A DNA stretch of 33,876 nucleotides from Ilumatobacteraceae bacterium (GTDB lineage: Bacteria > Actinomycetota > Acidimicrobiia > Acidimicrobiales > Ilumatobacteraceae): positions 242 to 34,117 of the forward strand of contig JALQUZ010000012.1 of NCBI GenBank assembly GCA_023263695.1, read 5' to 3'. Positions 3,293 to 32,662 of the stretch are shown one piece after another. The notes under the pieces were generated by a model, which saw nothing but the letters and a program-made list of their open reading frames with translations, was not told the origin of the DNA and searched no databases. Numbering within the stretch: position 1 is the stretch's first letter; each line of letters starts with the position of its first letter. Both the position numbers and the translations under genes were made by a program.

Positions 3293-7822
<4,530 letters not shown>

Positions 7823-18009: not shown

Positions 18010-20943
18010 CTAATTACCAATAATTTGCAGTGCTTGTCGAATGAGCTCTCGCGCCTGCGACAACTTCATTTGATACGTAGCGAAATCTGGCGGAGTTTGT
18101 GCCAATGCAGCATCCGCTTGATCAAACAACGTTTCAGCTTGTGCCAACAAATCTGGAGCGGTTTGCGAACCAGTTGGGGCGCTGCTTGGAACCGTGGTCG
18201 CGGTAGTACCACCAGTGTCGGGCACTATTGCGTCTGGCGCAGCAACTTGCCCATCGCCAACGCGATCACCAAGCGAACCCGAATATCCGGGGAACAGGCG
18301 CATAATTGCCGTAGTTAAATCATCTGCAATCACCACTTTGTTGTTGTACGAGGCTAAAACCTTTCGCACAAACACTTGTCGAGCAGATGCATCGTCTGGA
18401 CGCACAAACAATGGGCGCACATAGACAAGCCCCTTAGCTACTGGCACGATCTGCAGGTCGCCAAAAATAACTCGAGAACCACGTTGGTCGAGCAGTGTTA
18501 CTTGTTGTGACACCGTTGGGTCGCTACCAAATTCCGCGGCAACCGTGGCCGGACCTTCTGGCAAAGGCTCCCCAACTTTGTACACCTTCAATTGACCGTA
18601 GGTCCGAGGGTCACTTGAGACGACCATGAATGCACGTAATTCTTTTCGCGCATTGTCTGAGGAAAATGGAACAAATGGACGCAACATCGAAAACACGCCA
18701 TTAGTTTCAGTTGCTCCAGGAGCATGAAAAATAGTGAAATACGGTTCAAAACGTGCAACGTTTGCATCTTGAACGTTGATCAAATCAGGTGTTAAGGCAG
18801 CGTCAGCAGAGCTCACTACGCCAGTGGTACCTTCTGGCTCACTTGGCGGTGCTTGAGCAACGCTCCATGCTGCGTCACGGTTAAAAAACAGCGTTGGGTC
18901 GTCAAACTGATAGCGACCGTACATATTGGTTTGTACGCGGAACAAATCTTCTGGGTAACGGAAGTGAGCGATCAGATCGACCGATGCCTCAGAAACTGGA
19001 GTGAGCAATTTTGGAAACACTTTTGCCCATGTGTTCGCAATTGGATCATTGGCATCTACTTGGTAAAACGTTGCTTCTCCGGAGTACGCATCAACGACCA
19101 CTTTCACACTGTTGCGAACATAGTTAAACGTGGAGTTCAGCCCTGATCCTGCGGACAATTGATCGGTGTTTGCCGATTGTGAGTTTGGATAACGGCTGGT
19201 TGTTGTGAATGCATCAAGAATCCACACCACCTTTCCATCAACTACGGCTGGATACGGATCAGAGTCGTACTTGAAAAATGGTGCAATCTTTTGCACTCGG
19301 TCTTTAATGTTGCGAATCCACATAATGCGCGAGTCAGATGAAATCAGGTTTGATCCAAACAGGTTGTACTCGCCAAAATGAAGCGCAAATGCAACACGAC
19401 GTGTAGGCGATGAAAGTTTTACTCCGCCAGTTCCCGAGTACGCAGTTGCCGTGGTGTCTGGACAAGCTTGTTCAACTTGATTGGTGCCAACTATCGAGTA
19501 GCCATCCAGCCCTTCACCTACATACAACTGAGGGGTCTTCACTCCAATGTCGATATACGTCGGACGACCATCAACCGTCACTCGACTCGCAGGCGCTGCA
19601 ACGACTCCGCAACCGTGCGTATAAATGAGGTGTCGTGAAACCCACGTACGGTTGGGAATGCCGTCAGTATTGAGTTCTCGGGCACCAAGGATTACTTGCT
19701 GCAGCCTGCCATCAATGACGTATCGATCAACGTCGAGGTCTCGAATGGCATAGAACGAAGTTTTTCCTTCGTCCAAAGCAAATCGATCACGCATCTCCAA
19801 AGGATCGAGTTGACGAACATCGCGCAATGGAGTTTCATTCGCAGAAACATCAGCAGCGCTGATTGGCCCAAAGGTTATTGACTCCTGTGCCACTGCATCA
19901 ATATTGAATGCAGCTTTTGTTGCAATCAAGTTGTGTTCAATGTACGGGAGCTCCTTGGTACTTACGTTTGGTTGAACCGAGAATCGTTGAATAACCGCTG
20001 GGTAAATTGTTCCAGCAACTACTGCAACCAGCATCCACATCAATGTTGCAAGCACTGGAATTCTCCAGCCCTTTTGTCGCACATTCCACAAAAACAAAGC
20101 TGCTACAGCAAATGAAACCAAGATCATCAAGTTGGTAGCAGGTAATTGCGCCTTCACATCGGTATAGGTAGCTCCTTGCACCACTCCACGAGTTGAATCG
20201 GTAAGCGAGAAGCGCGACAACCAATAACTGGCAGCCCTAATAACAGCAAGTCCTGCAAATAACACCGATAGATGTGCTTTTGCCTGCGGAGTTACTTTGC
20301 GACCTTGTACCTGCAAGCGAATTCCACCGTTCAAATAGTGAATTGCGGCAGTGACAACCGTGATAAGGACAAGCGCGCCAAATAGCCAATTGACTACAAA
20401 CTCTGCAAACGGTAAACGGAAGACGTAAAAACTGATGTCCAGGTTGAACAACGGTTCTTTAACCCCGAATGATTGCTGATTTCTAAACAGCAGCCACTCT
20501 TGCCACTGTGTCATTGCTGGCAGCCCAACCATGAGACCTAGCACTACCGAGATAACTGCTCTTACGATCCATTGTTTGCGACCAACTAGTTGTCGATAGC
20601 CGGCAAGAGCTCGCTCTTCAGGTGATGGGGCAATTGATTCCGGAGCGATGCGATCTGCGAGCCAGCCATTAACCAGCATCAAAACAACAAAAACGGTGAC
20701 AAATACAGAGCCCAATAGGGCCTTTACGCCCAGCGTCCCCCAGAACACATCTCCACGTCCAAGCGTGTCATGCCACAACGCATCAACATAAAAACCCGAG
20801 ATGCTCTGCGCCGAGAGAAATAGCGCAACAATCACACCAATTACTGCTGTCGCAATTATGCGACTACGACTGGGACGCTTTAGGCGAAAACCGCCCTGTG
20901 GGTTGCGGGGACGGCGAGGAGGTAAGTCTGAAGGGTTGCGCAC
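18010..20943 (-). CDS. UPF0182 family membrane protein
   Basis: A 977-residue integral membrane protein of the UPF0182 (COG1615) family, common in actinobacteria and of unknown function. A basic, Pro/Arg-rich N-terminus (residues 1-28) is followed by seven hydrophobic helices within about residues 29-330, the first being IIATAVIGVIVALFLSAQ. A large extracytoplasmic domain runs to about residue 890 and contains family stretches such as GPISAADVSANETPLRD and VKVVVDAYSGEATFY. A Thr/Pro-rich acidic linker then leads to a final helical segment of about 50 residues rich in Ala, Gln and Asp. GTG 20943 is supported by a TAATCT seven bases upstream. The gene converges with the small coiled-coil gene. 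Confidence 0.95.
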   Translation of the reverse strand: MRNPSDLPPRRPRNPQGGFRLKRPSRSRIIATAVIGVIVALFLSAQSISGFYVDALWHDTLGRGDVFWGTLGVKALLGSVFVTVFVVLMLVNGWLADRIAPESIAPSPEERALAGYRQLVGRKQWIVRAVISVVLGLMVGLPAMTQWQEWLLFRNQQSFGVKEPLFNLDISFYVFRLPFAEFVVNWLFGALVLITVVTAAIHYLNGGIRLQVQGRKVTPQAKAHLSVLFAGLAVIRAASYWLSRFSLTDSTRGVVQGATYTDVKAQLPATNLMILVSFAVAALFLWNVRQKGWRIPVLATLMWMLVAVVAGTIYPAVIQRFSVQPNVSTKELPYIEHNLIATKAAFNIDAVAQESITFGPISAADVSANETPLRDVRQLDPLEMRDRFALDEGKTSFYAIRDLDVDRYVIDGRLQQVILGARELNTDGIPNRTWVSRHLIYTHGCGVVAAPASRVTVDGRPTYIDIGVKTPQLYVGEGLDGYSIVGTNQVEQACPDTTATAYSGTGGVKLSSPTRRVAFALHFGEYNLFGSNLISSDSRIMWIRNIKDRVQKIAPFFKYDSDPYPAVVDGKVVWILDAFTTTSRYPNSQSANTDQLSAGSGLNSTFNYVRNSVKVVVDAYSGEATFYQVDANDPIANTWAKVFPKLLTPVSEASVDLIAHFRYPEDLFRVQTNMYGRYQFDDPTLFFNRDAAWSVAQAPPSEPEGTTGVVSSADAALTPDLINVQDANVARFEPYFTIFHAPGATETNGVFSMLRPFVPFSSDNARKELRAFMVVSSDPRTYGQLKVYKVGEPLPEGPATVAAEFGSDPTVSQQVTLLDQRGSRVIFGDLQIVPVAKGLVYVRPLFVRPDDASARQVFVRKVLASYNNKVVIADDLTTAIMRLFPGYSGSLGDRVGDGQVAAPDAIVPDTGGTTATTVPSSAPTGSQTAPDLLAQAETLFDQADAALAQTPPDFATYQMKLSQARELIRQALQIIGN

Positions 20944-20950
20944 GCAGTGG

Positions 20951-20956
20951 AGATTA
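20951..20956 (-). promoter_or_regulatory. Putative -10 element of leaderless UPF0182 transcript, built on a stop codon
   Basis: TAATCT on the minus strand, seven bases before GTG 20943. Its first three bases are the TAA stop codon of the preceding DivIVA gene (20954-20956), so gene end and promoter share bases. Confidence 0.55.
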
Positions 20957-22822
20957 GTCGCCTATTGGCGCAATAAGGCATCGGCATCCAGCATGTGCTG
21001 TTGGATGAATATGCCCTGTTGGAAACTCGCTACCAAGATCTGTCGATCCTGCAAGTGAATTGTCTTCAGCGTCGGCGCAGCTTGGGCCATTTGGATCGAC
21101 CATCCAACACACTTTTGTACCTTGATCTAAAACCAAATATGCACCGCGACTGTACGCCATGCGAGCAATGTCTGAAACTTGCTGCTCGACACGCTGCATT
21201 TTCATTTCGCGATACACGCTACGAATGAGGTTTGACATCTCGTCTCTGTCGCCATTGCTTTGCTCGACTGCACGCTGAATTTTTTCACGAAATGGACGAA
21301 TTGTTGATTCATCTATTGTTCGTGAAACAACCTGCATCACTGCGCTGCGAGTAATTCGCTTTCGCAAATCTGCTTTCAGACTCTTCGACAAACTTTGTGC
21401 TCCGGCCATAGCTGCCGAGATCACGTCTTCTGCGAGTGCTTCCACATACATCTGCAAATGTTCATCAGCTGCTGGCAAAACTTTCTCAAGAGCAACACTT
21501 GACTTCTTGCCTTGTAAGTAGGTCAGCATCGAGTTTTCTTCGTCTGCCAAAACGCGCTTCATTTTTCGCGCGAGGAGCACCAAAATTGGCTCTAGTGCCG
21601 CATCCCGATGGTCAAAAACACCTTGATCCACCTTCGGAACTACAACTTTTGGCTTAGCCGTTCGGGCAACCTCAGCAGTATTAGTTTGCTTGAGTCGAGC
21701 AAACAGGTCATCAACTGATTTCTTCTGCGACGTTAATGCTGCTGGTTGCTTCTTTACTTCTGTAACTTCTACAACCTCTTCTGCTTCTAGAGGAGACTCA
21801 ACAACTTCAACGACTACCTGTTGAGCCTCGGCTTCTTTGCGTTTTTTGCCAAACAGCTGCACGACTTCAGCAATGTGTTCTTGTGCTGGTGGTTCAGACG
21901 AAGGGTGTTCAGACATTCCTGCAGGTGCCTCATGCATCTCGACCACAGTGGTGTCTGGTGTTTCTTCAACAAGTTCTTCGACTTCAATTTCCTCGGCAGC
22001 TTCAACGACTTCAACTGTGGTTGAGTCGATCGACTCCGCGATTACACCAACTACTTCTTCAATTTCAATCAATTCGGATGACTGTGGAATTGCGTCTGGA
22101 TCTTTGGTGTGATCAAAAAAGATCGGTGCAGTTGCATCTACTGGCGTGTTCAACCCACTAATTCGCGCAACTTCTTCAGACAGTTCGTCAAACTCTGTTA
22201 AATCGCCTACGACATCGTTTGCGGCAAGTCGAGCCCGATCAAATGCCGCGACCAAACGATCGCGATCATGAATGAGATGTTCAATTTGTTCGCGCGCCAA
22301 TTCACGCCGTCGCGCCAATTCACTCAACACTTTTTCGCGATATTCGCGTGCTTCATTGACCATTTCGCGGCCTTGTTGCTTTGCGAGTTCGATTTCTGCT
22401 TCAACATCTGCAACTGCATCATTTCGCTGACGCGCCGATTCAATTTCAGCCTCTTGACGAATGCGTGCGGCGTCTGAACTTGCTTCGCGCACCAGGCGTT
22501 CCGCTGTTTCGGCTGCTCGCGCAATCTGCTGTTTCGCGGCTTCACGCGCAGATGTAAGTACCCGCGCAGTTTCTTCTCCAAGAAGTGCAGTCACCATCTC
22601 TTCGTCTAATGCACCGGGAGCTGAAAGTCCACGAGTTTGCATTGCGCGAAGTTCACTTTCTAAAAAGCGTTCGCGCTCCTGCAACCGTGCAAGCTCTGCG
22701 GAAACGCCACGAAGCAGGTCTCGAACTTCTTCCTGTTCAAACCCACGCCTAACTACGCTGAATTGCGCAGACCCAACAGCCGCCGGTGACGACGGGTCGG
22801 GGCGTGAAAATGAAATTGCCAT
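20954..22822 (-). CDS. DivIVA-domain protein with C-terminal phage gpF-like Cys/His motif
   Basis: A 622-residue protein of mixed origin. Residues about 18-75 (FSVVRRGFEQEEVRDLLRGV, then helix) resemble the DivIVA/Wag31 N-terminal domain that binds curved membrane at poles and septa. A long charged helix (about 75-210), a very acidic low-complexity linker (about 235-335, rich in Glu, Val and Thr) and a helical region (about 385-560) follow. The C-terminus has Cys572 in VCWMVDPNG, Cys582, then a His-rich stretch and HAGCRC with His610, Cys613 and Cys615, the arrangement seen in phage Mu gpF/SPP1 gp7-type head morphogenesis proteins. A role at the cell pole or septum is inference. ATG 22822 is supported by TACTGT seven bases upstream. 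Confidence 0.85.
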   Translation of the reverse strand: MAISFSRPDPSSPAAVGSAQFSVVRRGFEQEEVRDLLRGVSAELARLQERERFLESELRAMQTRGLSAPGALDEEMVTALLGEETARVLTSAREAAKQQIARAAETAERLVREASSDAARIRQEAEIESARQRNDAVADVEAEIELAKQQGREMVNEAREYREKVLSELARRRELAREQIEHLIHDRDRLVAAFDRARLAANDVVGDLTEFDELSEEVARISGLNTPVDATAPIFFDHTKDPDAIPQSSELIEIEEVVGVIAESIDSTTVEVVEAAEEIEVEELVEETPDTTVVEMHEAPAGMSEHPSSEPPAQEHIAEVVQLFGKKRKEAEAQQVVVEVVESPLEAEEVVEVTEVKKQPAALTSQKKSVDDLFARLKQTNTAEVARTAKPKVVVPKVDQGVFDHRDAALEPILVLLARKMKRVLADEENSMLTYLQGKKSSVALEKVLPAADEHLQMYVEALAEDVISAAMAGAQSLSKSLKADLRKRITRSAVMQVVSRTIDESTIRPFREKIQRAVEQSNGDRDEMSNLIRSVYREMKMQRVEQQVSDIARMAYSRGAYLVLDQGTKVCWMVDPNGPSCADAEDNSLAGSTDLGSEFPTGHIHPTAHAGCRCLIAPIGD

Positions 22823-22843: not shown

Positions 22844-24013
22844 CTAGAGCGAGATTGTGGCATTCGTAAGTCCACTGCCACCAAGGGACTCAAGAAGAGT
22901 TAATGCCTCTTCAAGATTTGCCACAGTAACGAGTTTTATTGAAGACCCAAGTACTGCTCGAGCAGCGGCTAATTCCTCTGGCGACTGAGATTTAGGAACG
23001 ATAAACAACTTTGCACCTGCGGCTTTAACCGCCACTGCTTTTTGCGGTAAGGCGCCGATTGCGCCAACCGTTTCATCTTCATTTATCGTCCCAGTAGCCG
23101 CAACTTTCACCCCTCCAAACAAGTCACCAGGCGTCATTTCATCAAGCAAAGCAAGGGTAAAAGCGAGTCCTGCAGATGGTCCGCCAATACGGTCAGTGTC
23201 AATAGAGACTTCAAACGGAAGGACCACCGTTCGTGTGTCGGCTGGAATGAACCCGATGATCGTTCGACCTGGCTCATCGGGGCTTTCAATCAATTGAATC
23301 TTTCGGTCCTCTGGTTCAGTGGCCATGTGCGGGATAACGCTGATGGTCACGATGTCACCAGGTTCATGCCCTTCCATCAAAGGAGCCAGTTCAGCCAGTG
23401 TCGGAATGGATTTACCTTCAAAAGCAACCAGAGTGTCTCCGGGCTGCAACTGCTTGCATGCGCTGAGTGTTACCGGCAGATCCAAACACACCACCTCTTC
23501 AACGATCACACTTCCAAGCTCAAATGAAGCATCGAGCCCCAGCTTGGTAAATGCCACATACTCAGCAATCTGTTTCGCCGTGGTCATCGACTGAAAGCCA
23601 AGCTGCTGCTGAGTTCCAGGTGAGCTTTTTCCAAACCTTTCCTCAAACGATTGAACATCTACGTCCGAATCAATCGAGCCAACAAAAGTTTCAAGAGCTG
23701 AAAGTTGCCCGCCGAACGCGGTGACAAAGAGAACCGAATTTTCTGATGGGTAGCGAGTTACATGCGCAAGCGCTTCCTTGGTGAATTCAAGCCTGTTTGC
23801 CACTGGTTCGGCCGAACCTGGCGCCACTTCCCAGAAACGAACTTGAACACTTGCCGCGACAACAATGCCAATAAGCGCCAACCAGGCGCAGGTCAGCAAT
23901 GGCAATGCCCACCACAATTTGCGCAGTTCTGCTCTATCTACTGGTGTTGGAACAAGGGTCGGTGGTGGTAGCGGTACGCTATTTGGCATCGTGACGTCGT
24001 TGTTTTCGCTCAT
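22844..24013 (-). CDS. Membrane-anchored PDZ-Lon protease (YlbL type)
   Basis: A 389-residue protease made of one N-terminal membrane helix (LWWALPLLTCAWLALIGIVVAAS, about residues 25-50), an extracytoplasmic PDZ domain (about 180-250) and a Lon-type proteolytic domain without an ATPase. The catalytic dyad is Ser280 in GGPSAGLA and Lys325 in ALPQKAVAVKAAG; their spacing of 45 is close to the 43 in E. coli Lon. It probably degrades proteins at the outer membrane face. I choose ATG 24013, with AGGT seven bases upstream; an in-frame GTG at 24037 would add eight residues. It is divergent from the surface-sugar operon, with only 31 bases between the two starts. Confidence 0.92.
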   Translation of the reverse strand: MSENNDVTMPNSVPLPPPTLVPTPVDRAELRKLWWALPLLTCAWLALIGIVVAASVQVRFWEVAPGSAEPVANRLEFTKEALAHVTRYPSENSVLFVTAFGGQLSALETFVGSIDSDVDVQSFEERFGKSSPGTQQQLGFQSMTTAKQIAEYVAFTKLGLDASFELGSVIVEEVVCLDLPVTLSACKQLQPGDTLVAFEGKSIPTLAELAPLMEGHEPGDIVTISVIPHMATEPEDRKIQLIESPDEPGRTIIGFIPADTRTVVLPFEVSIDTDRIGGPSAGLAFTLALLDEMTPGDLFGGVKVAATGTINEDETVGAIGALPQKAVAVKAAGAKLFIVPKSQSPEELAAARAVLGSSIKLVTVANLEEALTLLESLGGSGLTNATISL

Positions 24014-24022
24014 CGATTTACC

Positions 24023-24028
24023 TATTTT
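24023..24028 (+). promoter_or_regulatory. Possible -10 element for the surface-sugar operon
   Basis: TATTTT fits TANNNT and would start transcription near 24035, about ten bases before GTG 24045. Weak, because TANNNT is common in AT-rich sequence and no -35 is clear. Confidence 0.3.
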
Positions 24029-24044
24029 CGCTTCCACATTCGGT

Positions 24045-24314
24045 GTGACGGTTAGGGCTTTGCTTGCCTGTGCTCTGGCAATTGGCGCCCTCGTCGTTCT
24101 CAGTGGCTCTAAGCCTGCCAGACAGGGCCGCCCAAATGTTGTTCAGGTGCAAACAAAGACAACTCCTCTATATACAGAGCCGTCAGAGAAGCAGCGAAAG
24201 ACCAGCGCCATTGGGCTTCTTGGTGGAAGTGTTCTGGCGGGAGCTTTGAGCGCAATTGTCATATCCGTCGTACTTGCCTACCTCGTCACCACACTGACGA
24301 GCTTGCTGAAATGA
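24045..24314 (+). CDS. Small two-helix membrane protein
   Basis: I do not recognise this family. The 89 residues contain two hydrophobic helices, about residues 4-21 (RALLACALAIGALVVLSG) and about 56-85 (IGLLGGSVLAGALSAIVISV), joined by a polar loop of about 35 residues. The frame is open further upstream, but that part overlaps the PDZ-Lon gene antisense, so I place the start at GTG 24045, the first start past the divergent gene. Its stop overlaps the ATG of the next gene by four bases (ATGA), good evidence that it is real and the first gene of the nonulosonate operon. A membrane accessory to glycan export or a Lon-associated factor are equally possible. Confidence 0.62.
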   Translation: MTVRALLACALAIGALVVLSGSKPARQGRPNVVQVQTKTTPLYTEPSEKQRKTSAIGLLGGSVLAGALSAIVISVVLAYLVTTLTSLLK

Positions 24315-25477
24315 GCTTTGTGAACGAATCAGCAATAGCAATCATCCCCGCCCGCGGCGGTTCAAAAGGAATTCTAAATAAGAACCTTCAGACCGTGGGT
24401 GGAGTTTCGCTATTAGCTCGAACAATTTCTTCTTGCCTGCAATCTAAGTCGATCTCCGCTGTCTACGTATCTACCGATAGCGATGAAATTGCTGCAGTTG
24501 CATTAGCTTGTGGCGCACAAGTAGTTCGACGGCCAGCAGAGATCTCTGGTGATTCCGCATCAAGTGAAACGGCTTTACTGCACGCACTTGTTGAAATCGA
24601 GAAGCAAAATTCGCTTGCAAAGAACTTGCTGTTTGCTCAATGTACTTCTCCATTTATTTCATACACAGATATTGACGGCATTCTTGAATTGCTCAAGGAT
24701 CACGATTCTGCGCTCACCGTTACCCACAACCATGCATTCATTTGGCGGAGGGACCACACAGGAAACGCCATTGGGATAAATCATGATTCATCGATTCGTC
24801 TTCCTCGTCAACAACTGGAACCTGAATACAAAGAAACTGGCGCTTTGTATGCCATGAACATTGAACAGTTTCGAAATAACGGTCATCGGTTTTTTGGACG
24901 GATTGGAATGTACGAAGTTCCAACAGATCGATCAATGGAAATTGATGAACCCGCGGACCTTCGACTCGCCAACACGCTTGAAACACAAGAAAAGAGTTTG
25001 CCAAGCACTGAGTTGCTGCAGGCAATTAAAGCCATCGTCTTTGATTTTGATGGAGTCATGACCGATGATCAGGTATACATCACAGAATCCGGCGAAGAGA
25101 TGGTGATGGCTAGTCGATCTGACGGAATGGGTATTTCCGCATTAAAGAATGCTGGTCTTAAGTTGCTCATTCTTTCAAAAGAGCGAAATCCGGTTGTTGC
25201 AAAGCGAGCAGAGAAGTTACAGATTGAAGTGATCCAGGCGTGCGATAACAAATTAGATGCTCTTACAGAATGGTTATCAAAAAATCAATTACCGCTTTCA
25301 CAATGTGCATACGTTGGTAATGACATTAATGACATTCAATGCATGCAGGCTGTAAGACTTGCAATTGCGCCAATTGACGCTCACCCACTTGCAGCACAAG
25401 CAGCACACTGGAGACTTACACGTGCTGGCGGAAAAGGCGCGATTCGCGAGCTTTCCGATGCAATCACCAATCGCTAG
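24311..25477 (+). CDS. neuA: CMP-nonulosonate (sialic acid-type) cytidylyltransferase fused to KdsC-type HAD phosphatase
   Basis: A 388-residue two-domain enzyme. Residues about 8-230 form an acylneuraminate cytidylyltransferase, with the nucleotide signature IIPARGGSKGILNKNL at 11-26 and SETALLHAL near 92; it would make the CMP-activated sugar. Residues about 240-388 form a KdsC-like phosphatase with the HAD nucleophile pair in FDFDGVMTDD (Asp245, Asp247), a Lys in LSKERNP and GNDINDIQ as the magnesium-binding motif. Vertebrate CMP-sialate synthetase has the same domain order, and the phosphatase could remove a 9-phosphate. Which nonulosonic acid is used is not shown; it could be pseudaminic, legionaminic or KDN-like. 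Translation is coupled to the small membrane protein upstream. Confidence 0.92.
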   Translation: MSFVNESAIAIIPARGGSKGILNKNLQTVGGVSLLARTISSCLQSKSISAVYVSTDSDEIAAVALACGAQVVRRPAEISGDSASSETALLHALVEIEKQNSLAKNLLFAQCTSPFISYTDIDGILELLKDHDSALTVTHNHAFIWRRDHTGNAIGINHDSSIRLPRQQLEPEYKETGALYAMNIEQFRNNGHRFFGRIGMYEVPTDRSMEIDEPADLRLANTLETQEKSLPSTELLQAIKAIVFDFDGVMTDDQVYITESGEEMVMASRSDGMGISALKNAGLKLLILSKERNPVVAKRAEKLQIEVIQACDNKLDALTEWLSKNQLPLSQCAYVGNDINDIQCMQAVRLAIAPIDAHPLAAQAAHWRLTRAGGKGAIRELSDAITNR

Positions 25478-25491
25478 TTGCTCTATTGCAT

Positions 25492-25497
25492 TAGGGT
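25492..25497 (+). promoter_or_regulatory. Putative internal leaderless promoter -10 before the NeuB-type gene
   Basis: TAGGGT, six bases (ATTTAC), then ATG 25504, in the 26-base gap after the neuA-type gene. It suggests that the rest of the operon has its own promoter. Confidence 0.55.
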
Positions 25498-25503
25498 ATT
25501 TAC

Positions 25504-26379
25504 ATGACAAATAAAGTCTCTGTCGGCAAAAAGTTCATTGGCGAAGGTGAGCCTGTTTATATCATTGCGGAAATCGGGATCAACCATAACGGGGATATCA
25601 AAATTGCAAAGCAATTGATGGACGTAGCGGTTGAAACTGGTTGTGACGCTGTGAAATATCAAAAGCGAACTCCAGAAATTTGTGTTCCAGAAGAGCAGAA
25701 AAGCATTCCACGTGAAACCCCGTGGGGCACCATGACATATTTTGACTATAAGAAGCGCATTGAATTTGAACAAAACGAATTCGAGCAAATTGATGCGTAT
25801 GCAAAGAAGATTGGAATCGACTGGTTTGCATCGCCGTGGGATGTTCCATCAGTTGACTTTCTTGAAGGATTTGGCGTCCCGTGCCAAAAGATTGCATCAG
25901 CTTGCCTCACTGATTCAGAGCTACTTTCTTCGATCAATAAGACCAAGACCACAACAATTCTGTCGACTGGAATGTCGTCAATAGATGAAATAGACAAAGC
26001 GGTTTCACTGCTCAATAATGTCCCACTTGCAATCGCACAGGCTACTTCTACCTATCCGGCTGAAGCATCTGAATTGAATCTTCGCACAATTCAGACATTC
26101 GCCGAAAAATACAAAGTGCCAGTTGGGTATTCGGGTCACGAGCGTGGATTGCAAGTGACCGTCGCAGCAGTTGCACTAGGTGCAACGTTTATCGAACGAC
26201 ACATCACTCTTGACCGCAGTATGTGGGGCACTGACCACTCAGCAAGCCTTGAGCCAGAAGGGCTAAAGAAATTGGTTCGTGATATTCGAATCATTGAACT
26301 TGCACTTGGTGATGGAAAAAAGAAGGTCTACGACAGCGAGATTCCAATTCGAGCAAAGCTTCGTCGAGTCCTTTCGTAA
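25504..26379 (+). CDS. neuB: NeuB/PseI-family nonulosonate synthase without SAF domain
   Basis: Condenses phosphoenolpyruvate with a six-carbon amino sugar to a nine-carbon nonulosonic acid. TIM-barrel signatures are present: IAEIGINHNGD near residue 20, AVKYQK near 57, DWFASPWD near 104, YSGHERG near 204 and ERHITLDRSMWGTDH near 225. The chain stops at 291 residues, right after the barrel, whereas NeuB and PseI are usually about 335-350 with a C-terminal SAF (antifreeze-like) domain that supplies a substrate-binding Arg to the partner subunit. The expected QHCVSSYP motif reads QATSTYP. The substrate is therefore uncertain. The gene may have its own leaderless promoter; seven bases separate it from the next gene. 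Confidence 0.92.
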   Translation: MTNKVSVGKKFIGEGEPVYIIAEIGINHNGDIKIAKQLMDVAVETGCDAVKYQKRTPEICVPEEQKSIPRETPWGTMTYFDYKKRIEFEQNEFEQIDAYAKKIGIDWFASPWDVPSVDFLEGFGVPCQKIASACLTDSELLSSINKTKTTTILSTGMSSIDEIDKAVSLLNNVPLAIAQATSTYPAEASELNLRTIQTFAEKYKVPVGYSGHERGLQVTVAAVALGATFIERHITLDRSMWGTDHSASLEPEGLKKLVRDIRIIELALGDGKKKVYDSEIPIRAKLRRVLS

Positions 26380-26385
26380 AGAGGC

Positions 26386-27600
26386 ATGATTTCAAAAATC
26401 CGCCGCGTATATCGAGTTATTCGAAATACACATATTTCATTTCGATTGTTGCGCCAATCACCTGTCGTTCAAATTCATCGTGACGGGATAGAAATACTTA
26501 CTCGCTACGTCGACCGTTCATCTATTTCGATTGTTGACCCGTCTGAACTCAACTTCTGGGTACTTTTCCGATGCTTACTTACGGCAAAGTTCCAGATGAA
26601 GAGCTACATGGCCGCGGTGATAAAGACCCAGCAGCCTCGTGTCGTCATCACATTTATTGATAACGATCCCACCTTCTACCTTCTTAAATCTCTTAATGCC
26701 TCGCCTGTTTACATTGCTGTCCAAAACGGACTACGGCACAATTATGCACATGCGTATCGGAGTGGTTTTGTGGATCACCTCGCTAATGCAGGAGGGAAGG
26801 ATCAGCTTGTAGCTGACCTCATATGTACTTTTGGTAAGGGTTCATCATTGTTTTTTGAAAACCATATTCACGCAAAAACCCTTGTCACGGGAAACCTAAA
26901 AAACAATTTGCTGGACTTGGACGAACCCAAAAGACCAGATTTTGACATCGTATTTATGTCCCAACATGCGCCATTTGACATTACAAATAGCGAAGAAACT
27001 ATCTACCTAAATAATTCCTCGGTATCAATACATAAGTTTTATGAAATAGAGGGCACGGTGGCAAAATTCCTTGCGCAATTCTGCACGGATCATTCGCTAC
27101 GGTTTGCGGTTTCGGGTAAACGAGGAGTTGAGGATGTTTTTGAACAGGAATTCTTTTCTAAAGCAATTGACAACCTGCCTTTCATTTTCTTACCTCGCAT
27201 CAGTGGGCATTCGAGCTATGTAAATGCATTCAACGCAAAACTTGTCGTAGTAATTGACAGCACCATCGGATACGAGCTGCTATCCAGAGGAAGAAAAGTT
27301 GCGTTTTTTTCTGCTCGAAGAATTGGAGAGTCAAGGGTGGTCGGCGAAGACAGAGACACCTGCTTCGGCTACCCGAATGTTTATCCCGATAATGGGGTCT
27401 TCTGGACCAACTACGCAGAGACCGCTGAGTACTCAAGAATCCTCAATTCATTATTGGGTATGACCGATGCAGAATGGGCACATCAAATTCAGCCATACAC
27501 TGAAGATTTGATGGTTTATCAGCCAGGGAATTCTGCATTCATTCAGATGCTTCAAAATGAGGGCATCCCATTAAAGAACGAGGGGTCACAACGTGCTTAG
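26386..27600 (+). CDS. Putative surface-carbohydrate biosynthesis transferase
   Basis: A 404-residue protein without signal peptide or membrane helices. ITFIDNDPTFYLLKS near residue 88 followed by VYIAVQNGLRHNY near 111, TFGKGSS and LVTGNLKNN resemble a family annotated as surface carbohydrate biosynthesis proteins, related in pattern to GT-B folds such as CDP-glycerol glycerophosphotransferases. VVIDSTIGYELLSRGRKV near 287 would be the nucleotide-binding half. I infer that it transfers or modifies the nonulosonate glycan; donor and acceptor are unknown. By eye it is more AT-rich than its neighbours, which could reflect transfer. The stop overlaps the next gene by eight bases. The start has AAAGAGG too close (one base) to be a good ribosome-binding site. 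Confidence 0.72.
   Translation: MISKIRRVYRVIRNTHISFRLLRQSPVVQIHRDGIEILTRYVDRSSISIVDPSELNFWVLFRCLLTAKFQMKSYMAAVIKTQQPRVVITFIDNDPTFYLLKSLNASPVYIAVQNGLRHNYAHAYRSGFVDHLANAGGKDQLVADLICTFGKGSSLFFENHIHAKTLVTGNLKNNLLDLDEPKRPDFDIVFMSQHAPFDITNSEETIYLNNSSVSIHKFYEIEGTVAKFLAQFCTDHSLRFAVSGKRGVEDVFEQEFFSKAIDNLPFIFLPRISGHSSYVNAFNAKLVVVIDSTIGYELLSRGRKVAFFSARRIGESRVVGEDRDTCFGYPNVYPDNGVFWTNYAETAEYSRILNSLLGMTDAEWAHQIQPYTEDLMVYQPGNSAFIQMLQNEGIPLKNEGSQRA
27580..27585 (+). promoter_or_regulatory. Shine-Dalgarno for pseB
   Basis: GAGGGG seven bases before GTG 27593. It fixes the pseB start inside the last codons of the preceding gene. Confidence 0.75.
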
Positions 27601-28591
27601 CGGTTCTTCCATACTGATTACCGGCGGCACGGGTTCATTCGGGCACACCTTTGTTCCGATGACGCTCAAAAAGTACAACCCCCGCCGACTCGTCATTTTT
27701 TCTCGTGATGAAATGAAACATTGGGAAATGGCAAAGGATTACGCGAACGATGATCGAGTTCGCTTCTTTGTTGGAGACGTGCGCGACAAAGACAGGTTGT
27801 CGCGAGCTCTAAAGGGAATTGATTACGTCGTTCACGCAGCCGCTACCAAGATTGTTCCAACTGCCGAGTATAACCCGTTTGAATGCGTGAAAACTAATGT
27901 CATTGGCGCAATGAACTTGATTGATGCTTGTATTGATCAAGGTGTAAAACGCGTCGTTGCACTTTCTACTGATAAGGCAAGCAGCCCAATCAATTTGTAT
28001 GGCGCAACAAAGCTCACCTCCGACAAATTATTTGTTGCAGGAAATTCCTATGCAGGAAAAGACGACACTCGTTTTGCGGTAGTGCGTTATGGCAATGTCA
28101 TGGGATCACGTGGTTCAATCATCCCGTTTCTTCTGTCAATTGCTGATAGTCCGTCGGTGCCAATTACTGATGAGCGCATGACACGATTCATGATCACTCT
28201 TGAACAAGGCGTTGAATTGGTTTGGAAGGCCTTTGATGACATGAGCGGCGGCGAAATCTACGTAAAGAAGATTCCTTCAATGAGAATCACTGATGTTGCC
28301 CGTGCAGTCGTTCCAAACGCTAAGCACGATCTTGTGGGTATTCGTCCAGGAGAAAAACTGCATGAACAGATGATCAGCCCAGACGATGCGCCACATACGT
28401 ACTCATACGGTGATTACTTCAAAATCCTTCCAGCTATCCATAACTGGAGCTCAGATGCAGGACGAATCGGCGATGGCGTGCCGGTAGGCGAAGGATTCGA
28501 CTATTCATCTGACAACAATCCCGAGTGGATGTCCGTTGAAGAGCTGCAGAAATGGGTTGCGGCAAACAAGGCAAAAATCGGTTCGTTTTAG
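27593..28591 (+). CDS. pseB: UDP-N-acetylglucosamine 4,6-dehydratase (inverting), PseB type
   Basis: First step of pseudaminic acid-type synthesis: dehydrates UDP-GlcNAc at C4-C6 with inversion at C5. This short-chain dehydrogenase fold starts with the cofactor motif TGGTGSFG (residues 10-17). The catalytic set is Asp127, Lys128 and Tyr136 in STDKASSPINLYGATK, with the same spacing as Asp132, Lys133 and Tyr141 of Helicobacter pylori FlaA1. ERMTRFMIT and GIRPGEKLHEQMIS are characteristic of PseB. Length (332) is normal, and it lacks the membrane domain of the larger PglF-type retaining enzymes. It is immediately followed by its usual partner, the PseC aminotransferase, four bases downstream. 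Confidence 0.95.
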   Translation: MLSGSSILITGGTGSFGHTFVPMTLKKYNPRRLVIFSRDEMKHWEMAKDYANDDRVRFFVGDVRDKDRLSRALKGIDYVVHAAATKIVPTAEYNPFECVKTNVIGAMNLIDACIDQGVKRVVALSTDKASSPINLYGATKLTSDKLFVAGNSYAGKDDTRFAVVRYGNVMGSRGSIIPFLLSIADSPSVPITDERMTRFMITLEQGVELVWKAFDDMSGGEIYVKKIPSMRITDVARAVVPNAKHDLVGIRPGEKLHEQMISPDDAPHTYSYGDYFKILPAIHNWSSDAGRIGDGVPVGEGFDYSSDNNPEWMSVEELQKWVAANKAKIGSF

Positions 28592-28595
28592 CAAT

Positions 28596-29762
28596 ATGGT
28601 CATTCCCTACGCGCGTCAATCAATTAGCAAACAGGATTTAAACGCGGTTGCGGAAGTTCTCCAATCTGACTACTTAACGCAAGGCCCAGTGGTGCCTGCT
28701 TTTGAAGAGGCAGTTGCCCGGCTTGTTGCCGCAAAATTTGCAGTTGCTGGAAATAGCGCCACTTCAATGTTGCATATTGCCTGTCTCGCCCTGGGCGTCA
28801 CCACAGGAGACCTGGTGTGGACTTCACCAATCTCGTTCGTTGCAAGTGCGAACTGTGCTTTGTACTGCGGTGCGGAAATTGATTTTGTTGATATTGATAG
28901 TGAAACTTTCAACATCAGTCCTGTTGCACTTGCAGCCAAACTTGAACTGGCAAAGAAATCGAACCGATTGCCAAAGGTGATTATTCCCGTTCACATGGGA
29001 GGGCAATCCTGCGACATGCAAGCAATTGGATCACTTGCACAGCAATATGGGATCAAAGTCATTGAGGATGCCTCACACGCCATTGGTGGGTCGTACAACT
29101 CGCAGAGAATTGGAAACTGTGCACACAGTGACATCACCATTTTTAGTTTTCACCCGGTAAAAATCATCACGTCTGGCGAAGGCGGCATGGCTATCACACA
29201 AGATGAGAGTTTGGCGCACAAAATGCGCATGTTGCGTAGTCACGGAATAACGCGTGATGCCACTGAGTTTGAATTCGCCAATGATGGACCTTGGTATTAC
29301 GAGCAACAGGAACTTGGTTTCAACTATCGACTAACTGATGTTGCTGCTGCGCTTGGGCTAAGTCAGCTGCAACGCATTGATTCGTTCATCCATCAACGAA
29401 ACTCCATCGCCTCTCGATATAGCGAAGCTTTTGCATCAACGCTTGTAGTAACTCCACATATCGCTTCCAAATCAATCTCGGCGTTTCACTTGTACATCGC
29501 ACGTTGTGACTTTGAAAAGCTGAGTGTCACTCGGGTTCAGCTATTCCAAAGGATGAAGGACATGGGCGTGTTGCTCAACCTTCATTACATTCCCATCTAT
29601 CGCCAGCCATACTTTGCAAAGATGGGTTTTGATCCAAAAGCATTCCCAAACGCAGAACGCTATTACGAACAAGCTTTCAGTATCCCGATGTATGCAGATC
29701 TAACTGAAACCGATCAAAACACGGTGATTTCTAGCCTTTTGAACGCCCTTTCAACCCAATAG
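28596..29762 (+). CDS. pseC: UDP-4-amino-4,6-dideoxy-N-acetyl-beta-L-altrosamine transaminase, PseC type
   Basis: Second step after PseB: a PLP-dependent DegT-family enzyme that places an amino group at C4 of the 4-keto sugar, using glutamate. The start MVIPYARQSISKQDL is typical; VIEDASHAIGGSY near residue 155 holds the cofactor-binding Asp; the PLP lysine is Lys189 in FHPVKIITSGEGG. GFNYRLTDVAAALGLSQL follows as in PseC. Length is 388. The ATG at 28596 is chosen because it matches the family N-terminus and begins four bases after the pseB stop; the frame is open upstream within pseB only by chance. Confidence 0.95.
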   Translation: MVIPYARQSISKQDLNAVAEVLQSDYLTQGPVVPAFEEAVARLVAAKFAVAGNSATSMLHIACLALGVTTGDLVWTSPISFVASANCALYCGAEIDFVDIDSETFNISPVALAAKLELAKKSNRLPKVIIPVHMGGQSCDMQAIGSLAQQYGIKVIEDASHAIGGSYNSQRIGNCAHSDITIFSFHPVKIITSGEGGMAITQDESLAHKMRMLRSHGITRDATEFEFANDGPWYYEQQELGFNYRLTDVAAALGLSQLQRIDSFIHQRNSIASRYSEAFASTLVVTPHIASKSISAFHLYIARCDFEKLSVTRVQLFQRMKDMGVLLNLHYIPIYRQPYFAKMGFDPKAFPNAERYYEQAFSIPMYADLTETDQNTVISSLLNALSTQ

Positions 29763-29774
29763 GGTTGAGGGTCA

Positions 29775-30638
29775 ATGAATCGAATTGTGCTCGGTGGAGC
29801 CCAACTTGGTCTCCCGTATGGAATTCTGAATGGTGGAGAGACGCTTAATCGCGAAGAGGTTGCACGCATTCTTGATACAGCAGTTGACCACGGAATTGAT
29901 GCAATCGATACAGCAATCGCTTATGGCCAGTCTGAGTCGATGATCGGAGAGACAGCGCTGAACCGATTCAAGATCATCTCAAAACTGCCTCCAATTCCAT
30001 CAGATGTGTCCAATGTTTCTCAATGGGTGCGCACACAAGTAGACGCATCGCTTTCACGATTGAATAGTAAATCGTTGGACGCCCTGTTGCTGCATCGTCC
30101 ACAGGACTTGACCGATTCCCTCGGCGCCGAACTGTACGCCGCAATCAATTCCTTACGGTTTGAAAAAGTCATCCACCGTTTTGGTATTTCTATTTACACA
30201 CCGAACGAACTTGCAGGAATAATCGGGAAATTTGATATCGACGTTGTTCAAGCACCATTGAATGTGTTTGATCGCAGAATTCTTGGAGTCATGGACCAAC
30301 TATCGGCACTAGACATTGAAGTGCATGTTCGGTCGGTATTCCTACAAGGCGTCCTCGTGGCCAAGCCTGAAGATCGACCCCAAAGATTCCAGCAGTGGTC
30401 TGAACATTTCACGAGGTTCGATAAATGGGTGAACGCGTCTGGAATGTCGGCAATGGCGTGCTGCCTTGGGTTTGCGCTTCAGCAGCCGGGAATTGCAAAG
30501 TTGGTAATCGGTACCACAAGTGCAAAATCACTTGCTGAAATCATGACCTCAATACCGAACACTCATTTGGAAGTGCCAGCACATCTACAGTCATCAATCG
30601 AACAACTCATTGATCCACGATCTTGGAGTGCTGGATGA
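29775..30638 (+). CDS. Aldo/keto reductase
   Basis: A 287-residue NAD(P)H-dependent reductase of the aldo/keto reductase superfamily. The catalytic tetrad is complete: Asp45 in AIDTA, Tyr50 in AYG, Lys70 in ISKLP and His107 in LLLHRP. The start LGGAQLGLPYG is typical of the group found inside surface-sugar clusters. Such a reductase could act on a keto sugar intermediate or an unrelated carbonyl; the exact step is not known. GTTSAKSLAEIM near the end is the usual cofactor-phosphate-binding region. The stop overlaps the ATG of the next gene by four bases (ATGA), so the two should be made together. Confidence 0.92.
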   Translation: MNRIVLGGAQLGLPYGILNGGETLNREEVARILDTAVDHGIDAIDTAIAYGQSESMIGETALNRFKIISKLPPIPSDVSNVSQWVRTQVDASLSRLNSKSLDALLLHRPQDLTDSLGAELYAAINSLRFEKVIHRFGISIYTPNELAGIIGKFDIDVVQAPLNVFDRRILGVMDQLSALDIEVHVRSVFLQGVLVAKPEDRPQRFQQWSEHFTRFDKWVNASGMSAMACCLGFALQQPGIAKLVIGTTSAKSLAEIMTSIPNTHLEVPAHLQSSIEQLIDPRSWSAG

Positions 30639-32662
30639 AAATCGTTGTAGTAGTTCAAGCCCGACTCGGATCAACACGTTTGCCCAATAAGGTCCTCGCG
30701 CCAATTGGAGATGTTCCACTCATTGAGTTTTTACTTAGTCGATTATCAAAGTCTGAACGCATTTCTGAAATCGTTTTGGCTACTTCAACAAACGAAGTTA
30801 ATGATCAACTTGCCGAGGTAGTTGAAAATTTGGGATACAAAGTCATTCGTGGATCGGAAAACGATGTGCTTCAGCGGTACGTTGATGCCGCAGCAGCAAC
30901 TAATGCAGACGTCGTCATCCGTATCACGGGTGATTGTCCATTTGTTGATCCCCAATTGATTGACGAAATGCTTGAAGATTTTGTTGCATCAACTATCGAC
31001 TACATGTCTAATACCAATCCGCCAACATTCCCGGATGGCCTTGATATTGAGATATTTAAAATGAGTGCGCTATTGCAGTCAGCCGAGATTGCAACTTCGC
31101 CTTTTGAACGGGAACACGTAACCCCGTGTCTTCGAAATAATTCCCAGTTCTCACGGAAAAACAAGGCTGCAGTAGTTGATGCATCCCACCTGCGATTAAC
31201 CGTTGATGAGCAGAGAGATTTGGACGTAGTTCGTGGCATCGCAAACCTTTTTGCACCTCGCACAGACTTCTCATTATCCGAAATTCTTAGTGTGATAACC
31301 ACTAATCCACACCTCGTTACTGGCAATCTAGATATTGAACGAAATGAGGGTGCAACGATGAACACAGGTCAGAAACTTTGGAAGCGTGCACAACACGTAA
31401 TCCCGGGCGGAAATATGTTGCTCTCTAAACGCCCTGATCAGTTTTTGCCAGAACATTGGCCAGCTTATTTTTCAAAAGCACATGGCTGCACGGTTTGGGA
31501 TCTTGATGACAATGCACTCACTGATATGTCGATCATGGGTATTGGCACTAATTCTCTTGGTTACGGTCACCCAGAAATTGATGCTGCAGTTGCAAAGACC
31601 GTTCGCGATGGCAACATGAGCACACTCAACTGTCCAGAAGAGGTGTACCTAGCCGAGCGACTAGTAGCTATGCACCCATGGGCCGAGATGGCGCGATTTG
31701 CTCGTACTGGCGGAGAAGCCAACGCCATTGCGATTCGCATCGCTCGCGCTGCAACGGGGAAATCAAAAGTTGCAATCTGTGGATACCACGGATGGCACGA
31801 CTGGTACTTGGCTGCAAACCTTGGTACTGAGAACACTTTGGCTGGGCATTTGCTCCCAGGCCTTGAGCCACATGGCGTACCCGAAAATCTTCGTGGTTCT
31901 GTGCTCACATTTAACTACAACCGAATTGACGAACTTGAAGCACTTATCTCAACAAATGAGTTAGGTGCAATCATGATGGAAGTTTCACGAAACTTTGGTC
32001 CGGAAGATGACTTCTTGCAGAAGGTTCGTGACCTCGCCACCAAACATGGAATTGTGTTGATGTTTGACGAATGCACTTCTGGTTTCAGACAAACATTTGG
32101 CGGACTCCACAAGATGTACGGCGTTGAACCAGACATGGCAATGTTTGGCAAAGCATTAGGCAATGGATACGCAATCACCGCAGTTCTCGGTAAGCGGTCC
32201 GTAATGGAAGCAGCCCAAAACACATTCATCAGCAGCACATTCTGGACTGAGCGGATTGGGCCTACCGCTGCTCTGGCAACACTTGATGTAATGGAACAAA
32301 CAAAATCTTGGGAAATCATTACCAAGATGGGCCTTTACATCACCGAACAATGGAAATCAATTGCCAAATCAACCGGAATTGCTATTAAAACCAGTGGGTT
32401 ACCTGCACTGACTTCCTTTTCAGTTGACTCGAAGTTCGCACTTGAATACAAGACGCTTATTACACAAGAGATGCTGAAAAAGTCATATCTTGCTGGAACG
32501 AGTGTTTATGTTGCGACTGTACACACGAAGGAAATTGTTGACCGTTTCTTTGCTGAACTTGAACCTGTCTTTGCATTAATCAAAGACTGTGAAGACGGAC
32601 GTGACGTAAATGCTCTGCTTGACGGTCCGACGTGTAGCTCAGGCTTCAAGCGATTGAATTAA
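30635..32662 (+). CDS. SpsF-type nucleotidyltransferase fused to GSA-type class III aminotransferase
   Basis: A 675-residue bifunctional protein. Residues 1 to about 235 are an SpsF-like cytidylyltransferase-type domain with VVQARLGSTRLPNKVL at 5-20 and RITGDCPFVDP near 92. From about residue 242 the chain is a class III PLP enzyme of the glutamate-1-semialdehyde aminotransferase type, with WKRAQHVIPGG, FARTGGEANAIAIRIAR, MFDECTSGFR and the PLP lysine Lys506 in FGKALGNGY. It is unlikely to serve heme synthesis; in sugar clusters such enzymes probably aminate or isomerise a sugar precursor. Met242 has its own ribosome-binding site (31346-31350), so a free aminotransferase may also be produced. 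The GSA part ends in a Cys-containing tail (TCSSGFKRLN). Confidence 0.94.
   Translation: MKIVVVVQARLGSTRLPNKVLAPIGDVPLIEFLLSRLSKSERISEIVLATSTNEVNDQLAEVVENLGYKVIRGSENDVLQRYVDAAAATNADVVIRITGDCPFVDPQLIDEMLEDFVASTIDYMSNTNPPTFPDGLDIEIFKMSALLQSAEIATSPFEREHVTPCLRNNSQFSRKNKAAVVDASHLRLTVDEQRDLDVVRGIANLFAPRTDFSLSEILSVITTNPHLVTGNLDIERNEGATMNTGQKLWKRAQHVIPGGNMLLSKRPDQFLPEHWPAYFSKAHGCTVWDLDDNALTDMSIMGIGTNSLGYGHPEIDAAVAKTVRDGNMSTLNCPEEVYLAERLVAMHPWAEMARFARTGGEANAIAIRIARAATGKSKVAICGYHGWHDWYLAANLGTENTLAGHLLPGLEPHGVPENLRGSVLTFNYNRIDELEALISTNELGAIMMEVSRNFGPEDDFLQKVRDLATKHGIVLMFDECTSGFRQTFGGLHKMYGVEPDMAMFGKALGNGYAITAVLGKRSVMEAAQNTFISSTFWTERIGPTAALATLDVMEQTKSWEIITKMGLYITEQWKSIAKSTGIAIKTSGLPALTSFSVDSKFALEYKTLITQEMLKKSYLAGTSVYVATVHTKEIVDRFFAELEPVFALIKDCEDGRDVNALLDGPTCSSGFKRLN
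31346..31350 (+). promoter_or_regulatory. Internal Shine-Dalgarno at the fusion junction
   Basis: GAGGG seven bases before an in-frame ATG at 31358, exactly where the aminotransferase domain begins. It could drive internal initiation of the second domain, or be the remnant of formerly separate genes. Confidence 0.55.

Follow-up and report, generated by a model that had tools for sequence, protein, structure and literature searches.

What would a domain from phage head assembly be doing at the end of a protein that begins like DivIVA, the polar scaffold of bacterial cells? The question is raised by one gene in a 33,876-nt stretch of DNA (the window; contig JALQUZ010000012.1, positions 242 to 34,117) from an Ilumatobacteraceae bacterium. 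A preliminary description of the sequence had proposed that its N-terminus is DivIVA-like and its C-terminus resembles Mu gpF and SPP1 gp7, and that a virion-assembly domain might have been co-opted for a cell-envelope or division role. The reading frame and its two ends are as described there, and the gene, its regions and its neighbors were delimited as follows.

20954..22822, minus strand: DivIVA-MuF fusion gene, an open reading frame of 622 aa
22424..22777, minus strand: DivIVA domain and start of the coiled coil (residues 16-133; PF05103, E 2.5e-8)
21623..22132, minus strand: acidic, fast-evolving linker (residues 231-400)
20957..21622, minus strand: MuF (gpF/gp7-like) domain (residues 401-622), assigned through family-level PF04233/PHROG matches, hhalign, AlphaFold2 and Foldseek
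20957..21118, minus strand: Cys/His knob (residues 569-622) with Cys572, Cys582, His610, Cys613 and Cys615
18010..20943, minus strand: UPF0182 seven-TM membrane protein (PF03699, E 1.6e-235)
22844..24037, minus strand: PDZ-Lon membrane protease (Lon_C, E 1.3e-6, plus PDZ)

The UPF0182 gene lies next downstream of the fusion gene across a 10 bp gap and the PDZ-Lon gene next upstream across 21 bp, both on the same strand. Elsewhere in the window, a plus-strand cluster at 24311-32662 encodes a CMP-sugar transferase together with HAD, NeuB, Polysacc_synt_2, DegT aminotransferase, aldo/keto reductase, CTP_transf_3 and class-III aminotransferase proteins, and resembles a pathway for a nonulosonic (sialic-like) acid; a GH36 melibiase and a LacZ-type GH2 enzyme encoded close together (321-2447 and 4249-7152) point to galactoside use.

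The DivIVA assignment of the N-terminus was confirmed. The window protein scored 34.4 bits against PF05103, above the gathering cut-off of 28, and all 30 of 30 sampled family members, divergent N-termini included, matched the same profile (E <= 0.01). The solved DivIVA N-domain 2wuj was matched as well (E 6.6e-12). The protein shares with the DivIVA/Wag31 polar scaffolds (PF05103) an N-terminal DivIVA domain, a coiled coil and the lack of any TM-like segment, but differs from them in its 170-residue acidic linker, its folded MuF head and its UPF0182 neighbor, and it matches the Wag31 equivalog model NF050102 weakly, at 23.4 bits, far below the 260 required. The linker is acidic as first described (residues 231-400 carry a net charge of -23, with 38 D+E vs 15 K+R), and its length is nearer 170 residues than the roughly 100 given then; its dN was the highest among five protein regions in every pair compared. 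A second DivIVA was looked for in 23 genomes of the window's genus and none was detected, leaving the fusion as the only recognizable DivIVA there and hence a candidate main polar organizer, which in this genus may be the only one. Relatives with larger genomes carry a separate second DivIVA elsewhere.

The MuF end was less directly recognized. Searched alone, the window protein gave no match to PF04233 (gathering score 29.6 bits), so that the profile search proposed for its own C-terminus failed; relatives within the class reached 22.7-28.4 bits, still under that score. Its match to the portal-MuF family phrog_2662 was weak (E 0.0012) and fell at positions 496-705 of 717, the MuF part. It was the family profile and the predicted fold that revealed the domain. 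Among the 36 sequences of the cellular alignment A1, 30 matched phrog_2662 (best 2.7e-15), with further PHROG head-morphogenesis families ranking after it, and 14 matched PF04233 (best 2.6e-5). Alignment of the cellular against the viral MuF profiles with hhalign gave 99.4% probability (E 1.8e-21) over 193 columns, the helical part included. The AlphaFold2 model of residues 385-622 (mean pLDDT 89.6, pTM 0.86) shows a bundle of helices with a short beta/Cys-His knob at its end, and Foldseek returned 32 matches among viral models at E <= 0.001, with a probability of 1.00 to phage head proteins; those with names were nearly all head morphogenesis, minor capsid, MuF-like, portal or related phage proteins. 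A scan of viral contigs yielded 39 relatives; each of the six tested matched PF04233, with five exceeding the cut-off, and a portal domain was present in two of the six as well, one above its own cut-off. For scans of collections a narrower alignment was used, the broad one being too diverse. A tblastn search of phage records with a cellular MuF domain found nothing; it takes profiles, viral contigs or folds to bring out the link between cellular and phage MuF. Searching the PDB with the MuF alignment gave marginal matches only (ZorA helical region, E 0.008), and a fold search of the MuF model against solved structures gave no match.

Profile and fold thus place the domain in the MuF superfamily over both its helical region and its knob, and the C-terminus is gpF-like at the level of the family. 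The domain is homologous to MuF but divergent, and is therefore classed as MuF-related rather than as a member of PF04233. We regard this homology, and the fusion of the domain to DivIVA, as practically certain. A convergent origin, in which knob and helices are unrelated to MuF, would agree with the missing PF04233 match of the window protein alone, but it is nearly refuted by the profile, profile-profile and fold searches, all of which rank MuF first, and we hold it to be extremely improbable. With phage MuF proteins (PF04233; Mu gpF, SPP1 gp7, phrog_2662) the cellular domain shares the helical region, the W...CxxC...PPxHxxCxC knob and the predicted fold. Unlike them it is fused to DivIVA, has no portal or terminase gene nearby and, as the alignments show, has not retained the phage RAxxIAxTE signature; in the window's lineage, moreover, Ala replaces the second Cys and the Trp is preceded by a Cys.

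The conservation of the knob was counted by column in 149 cellular rows with an intact end and in 34 viral rows. Cys613 and Cys615, forming CxC, are invariant (149/149 cellular rows), and nearly so are the Trp following Cys572 (146/149), His610 (143/149) and Cys582, the first Cys of CPxC (141/149), while the second CPxC Cys is kept in 119/149; the viral rows show the same pattern. This conservation is far beyond chance. In the four nearest pairs the knob has a dN/dS of about 0-0.07, indicating strong purifying selection. All five positions named in the preliminary description (572, 582, 610, 613 and 615) stood, with the qualification that the second Cys of the canonical CPxC is Ala in the window's lineage, where Cys572 directly precedes the near-invariant Trp. 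The conserved Cys and His residues suggest a zinc-binding knob, one that is probably metal-stabilized. A Cys at position 572 occurs mainly in lineages that lost the second CPxC Cys, being present in 25 of 30 rows without that residue vs 2 of 119 rows with it. On the tree this swap goes back to a handful of origins, and a test with independent pairs, itself under-powered, found no significance; the swap therefore does no more than suggest a ligand exchange within the putative metal site.

The same architecture was found in 54 of 61 near genomes. Across the class, 133 of 198 genomes encode a MuF-type domain, as do 57 of 397 across the phylum, where about seven families outside the class are represented; Acidimicrobiales, Aquihabitans, Acidiferrimicrobium and Aciditerrimonas are among the carriers. 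Nearly every one of the matching genomes has a single copy. When the window protein served as the sole reference, a DivIVA N-terminus was detectable in 131 of the 161 ORFs that carry MuF and are 450 aa or longer, the remainder being cut by contig or locus ends or divergent; none of the viral MuF proteins found here has a DivIVA end. When 59 cellular and 30 viral MuF domains were placed in one tree, the cellular sequences formed one side of a branch with support 95/95. This is consistent with one capture, in an unrooted tree whose viral members had been selected for their similarity to the cellular query. As the tree is unrooted, the direction from phage to cell rests on the diversity and general occurrence of MuF in tailed phages (PMC5576092). 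Our explanation of the scaffold, which as a whole we judge somewhat better than an even bet, includes a phage origin of the domain and its early fixation in Acidimicrobiia-type actinobacteria.

The survey proposed at the outset found the neighborhood of the fusion to be conserved; at the level of the family, all three proposed checks (DivIVA, MuF and gene context) thereby favored the initial proposal. Of 136 testable loci, 134 have UPF0182 immediately downstream on the same strand; PDZ-Lon is the immediate upstream neighbor in 74 of 121 and lies a few kb further up in others. Among the loci examined, a PAS/HAMP sensor histidine kinase lies between PDZ-Lon and the fusion in L075, L147 and L115, accompanied in L075 and L147 by a short lipoprotein-like protein; a membrane histidine kinase recurs in the fusion operon in several lineages. 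The ORFs scanned around the window gene included no phage structural gene, in agreement with the earlier statement that nothing else phage-like lies nearby, and the neighbors are UPF0182 and PDZ-Lon rather than portal, terminase or other prophage genes. This sets the fusion apart from the MuF polymorphic toxins (Jamet 2017, PMC5576092), which likewise use MuF as a module in a larger protein. There, 96% of bacterial muf genes lie in prophages or their remnants and the toxin follows MuF (PMC5576092), whereas in the fusion MuF stands at the C-terminus of a chromosomally encoded protein that has no toxin domain. The operon, the vertical conservation and the absence of prophage genes all agree with the proposed co-option, and we consider an envelope or polar role of the fusion likely.

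The slot before UPF0182 also varies. L229 and L245 have a DivIVA without MuF, and L090, L091, L230 and L232 a DivIVA with the helical part of MuF but without the knob, so MuF is not indispensable. L090 and L091 belong to one genome (G072), in which two operon copies lacking the Cys knob each stand beside their own UPF0182; L243 (G324) holds a frame-broken remnant of the fusion, and L245 (G393) the DivIVA-only gene, in that slot. UPF0182 also occurs without any DivIVA neighbor.

UPF0182 is modeled (pLDDT 85) with seven long helices at its N-terminal end plus a large folded domain, and no relative was found among solved structures in the PDB. Its counterpart in M. tuberculosis is presumably Rv3193c. 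That protein, which has seven TM helices, interacts genetically with the divisome gene rv0954 by TnSeq and is listed alongside rodA, pbpA and lamA (PMC8093794). SPP1 gp7, in turn, binds the phage portal strongly (PMC6316719). From these two observations we regard protein docking, most likely to UPF0182, as the most probable function of the MuF head; the lost RAxxIAxTE signature means that docking of the portal type may not carry over.

Starting from the homology, fold, fusion, operon, vertical inheritance and selection observed here, we favor, with a probability of about 0.6, a polar or septal scaffold of the DivIVA type that bears a phage-derived MuF effector head. By analogy with the DivIVA family, the N-terminal domain would bind curved membrane and the coiled coil would oligomerize, so that the acidic linker would hold out many copies of a folded helical head capped by the probably metal-stabilized knob. 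This head would act as a protein docking module, much as gp7 docks on the portal, and would most likely recruit the co-encoded UPF0182 to sites of growth or division, in some lineages with the sensor kinase and the lipoprotein-like protein as well. Operon adjacency does not prove contact between MuF and UPF0182, and we put this particular docking forward as a guess with odds clearly below even. Slightly less doubtful, yet still tentative, is the broader picture of one early capture that turned a virion head-assembly domain into the head of a polar scaffold, docking a seven-TM envelope protein to organize growth or division; the fusion's place as the cell's only DivIVA in some lineages is included in that picture at the same tentative level.

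Other jobs for the head were weighed against docking. It might set the size of scaffold clusters by self-assembly or capping, with no outside ligand, as its long helical fold and its dispensability in some lineages would allow; this would leave both the near-fixed UPF0182 neighbor and the invariant CxC knob unexplained, and we think it unlikely. Nor do we give much more weight, indeed slightly less, to a tether in which the head would hold the chromosome at the pole by binding DNA or a nucleoprotein, one chain doing the job that DivIVA plus RacA or ParB does elsewhere. DivIVA does anchor oriC through ParB in actinobacteria (PMC8872289), and the title of Stiege 2003, cited in PMC5576092, calls SPP1 gp7 a DNA-binding protein. 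The idea is weakened, however, by the acidity of the cellular MuF domains (median net charge -12 vs -4.5 for viral ones), and the linked genes encode membrane proteins. Least probable of the three is a decoy that would interfere with phages by competing for their portals as heads are put together: kinship with a virion component would suit it, whereas vertical conservation in a housekeeping-like operon across the class speaks against it. The docking scaffold thus remains our preferred reading.

Among the openly accessible papers searched, we found none joining DivIVA with MuF domains or with phage head morphogenesis. Domesticated phage structural parts are mostly known as secretion and injection devices, and a MuF domain in a polar scaffold, if our reading is true, would be a different sort of domestication. 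In a whole branch of actinobacteria, it seems, a component of virus assembly has become part of core cell architecture. The role of MuF itself is poorly understood, and the fusion would show what the domain is capable of outside the virion; it also offers a way into the study of UPF0182, a membrane family widespread in actinobacteria and without known function or solved fold.
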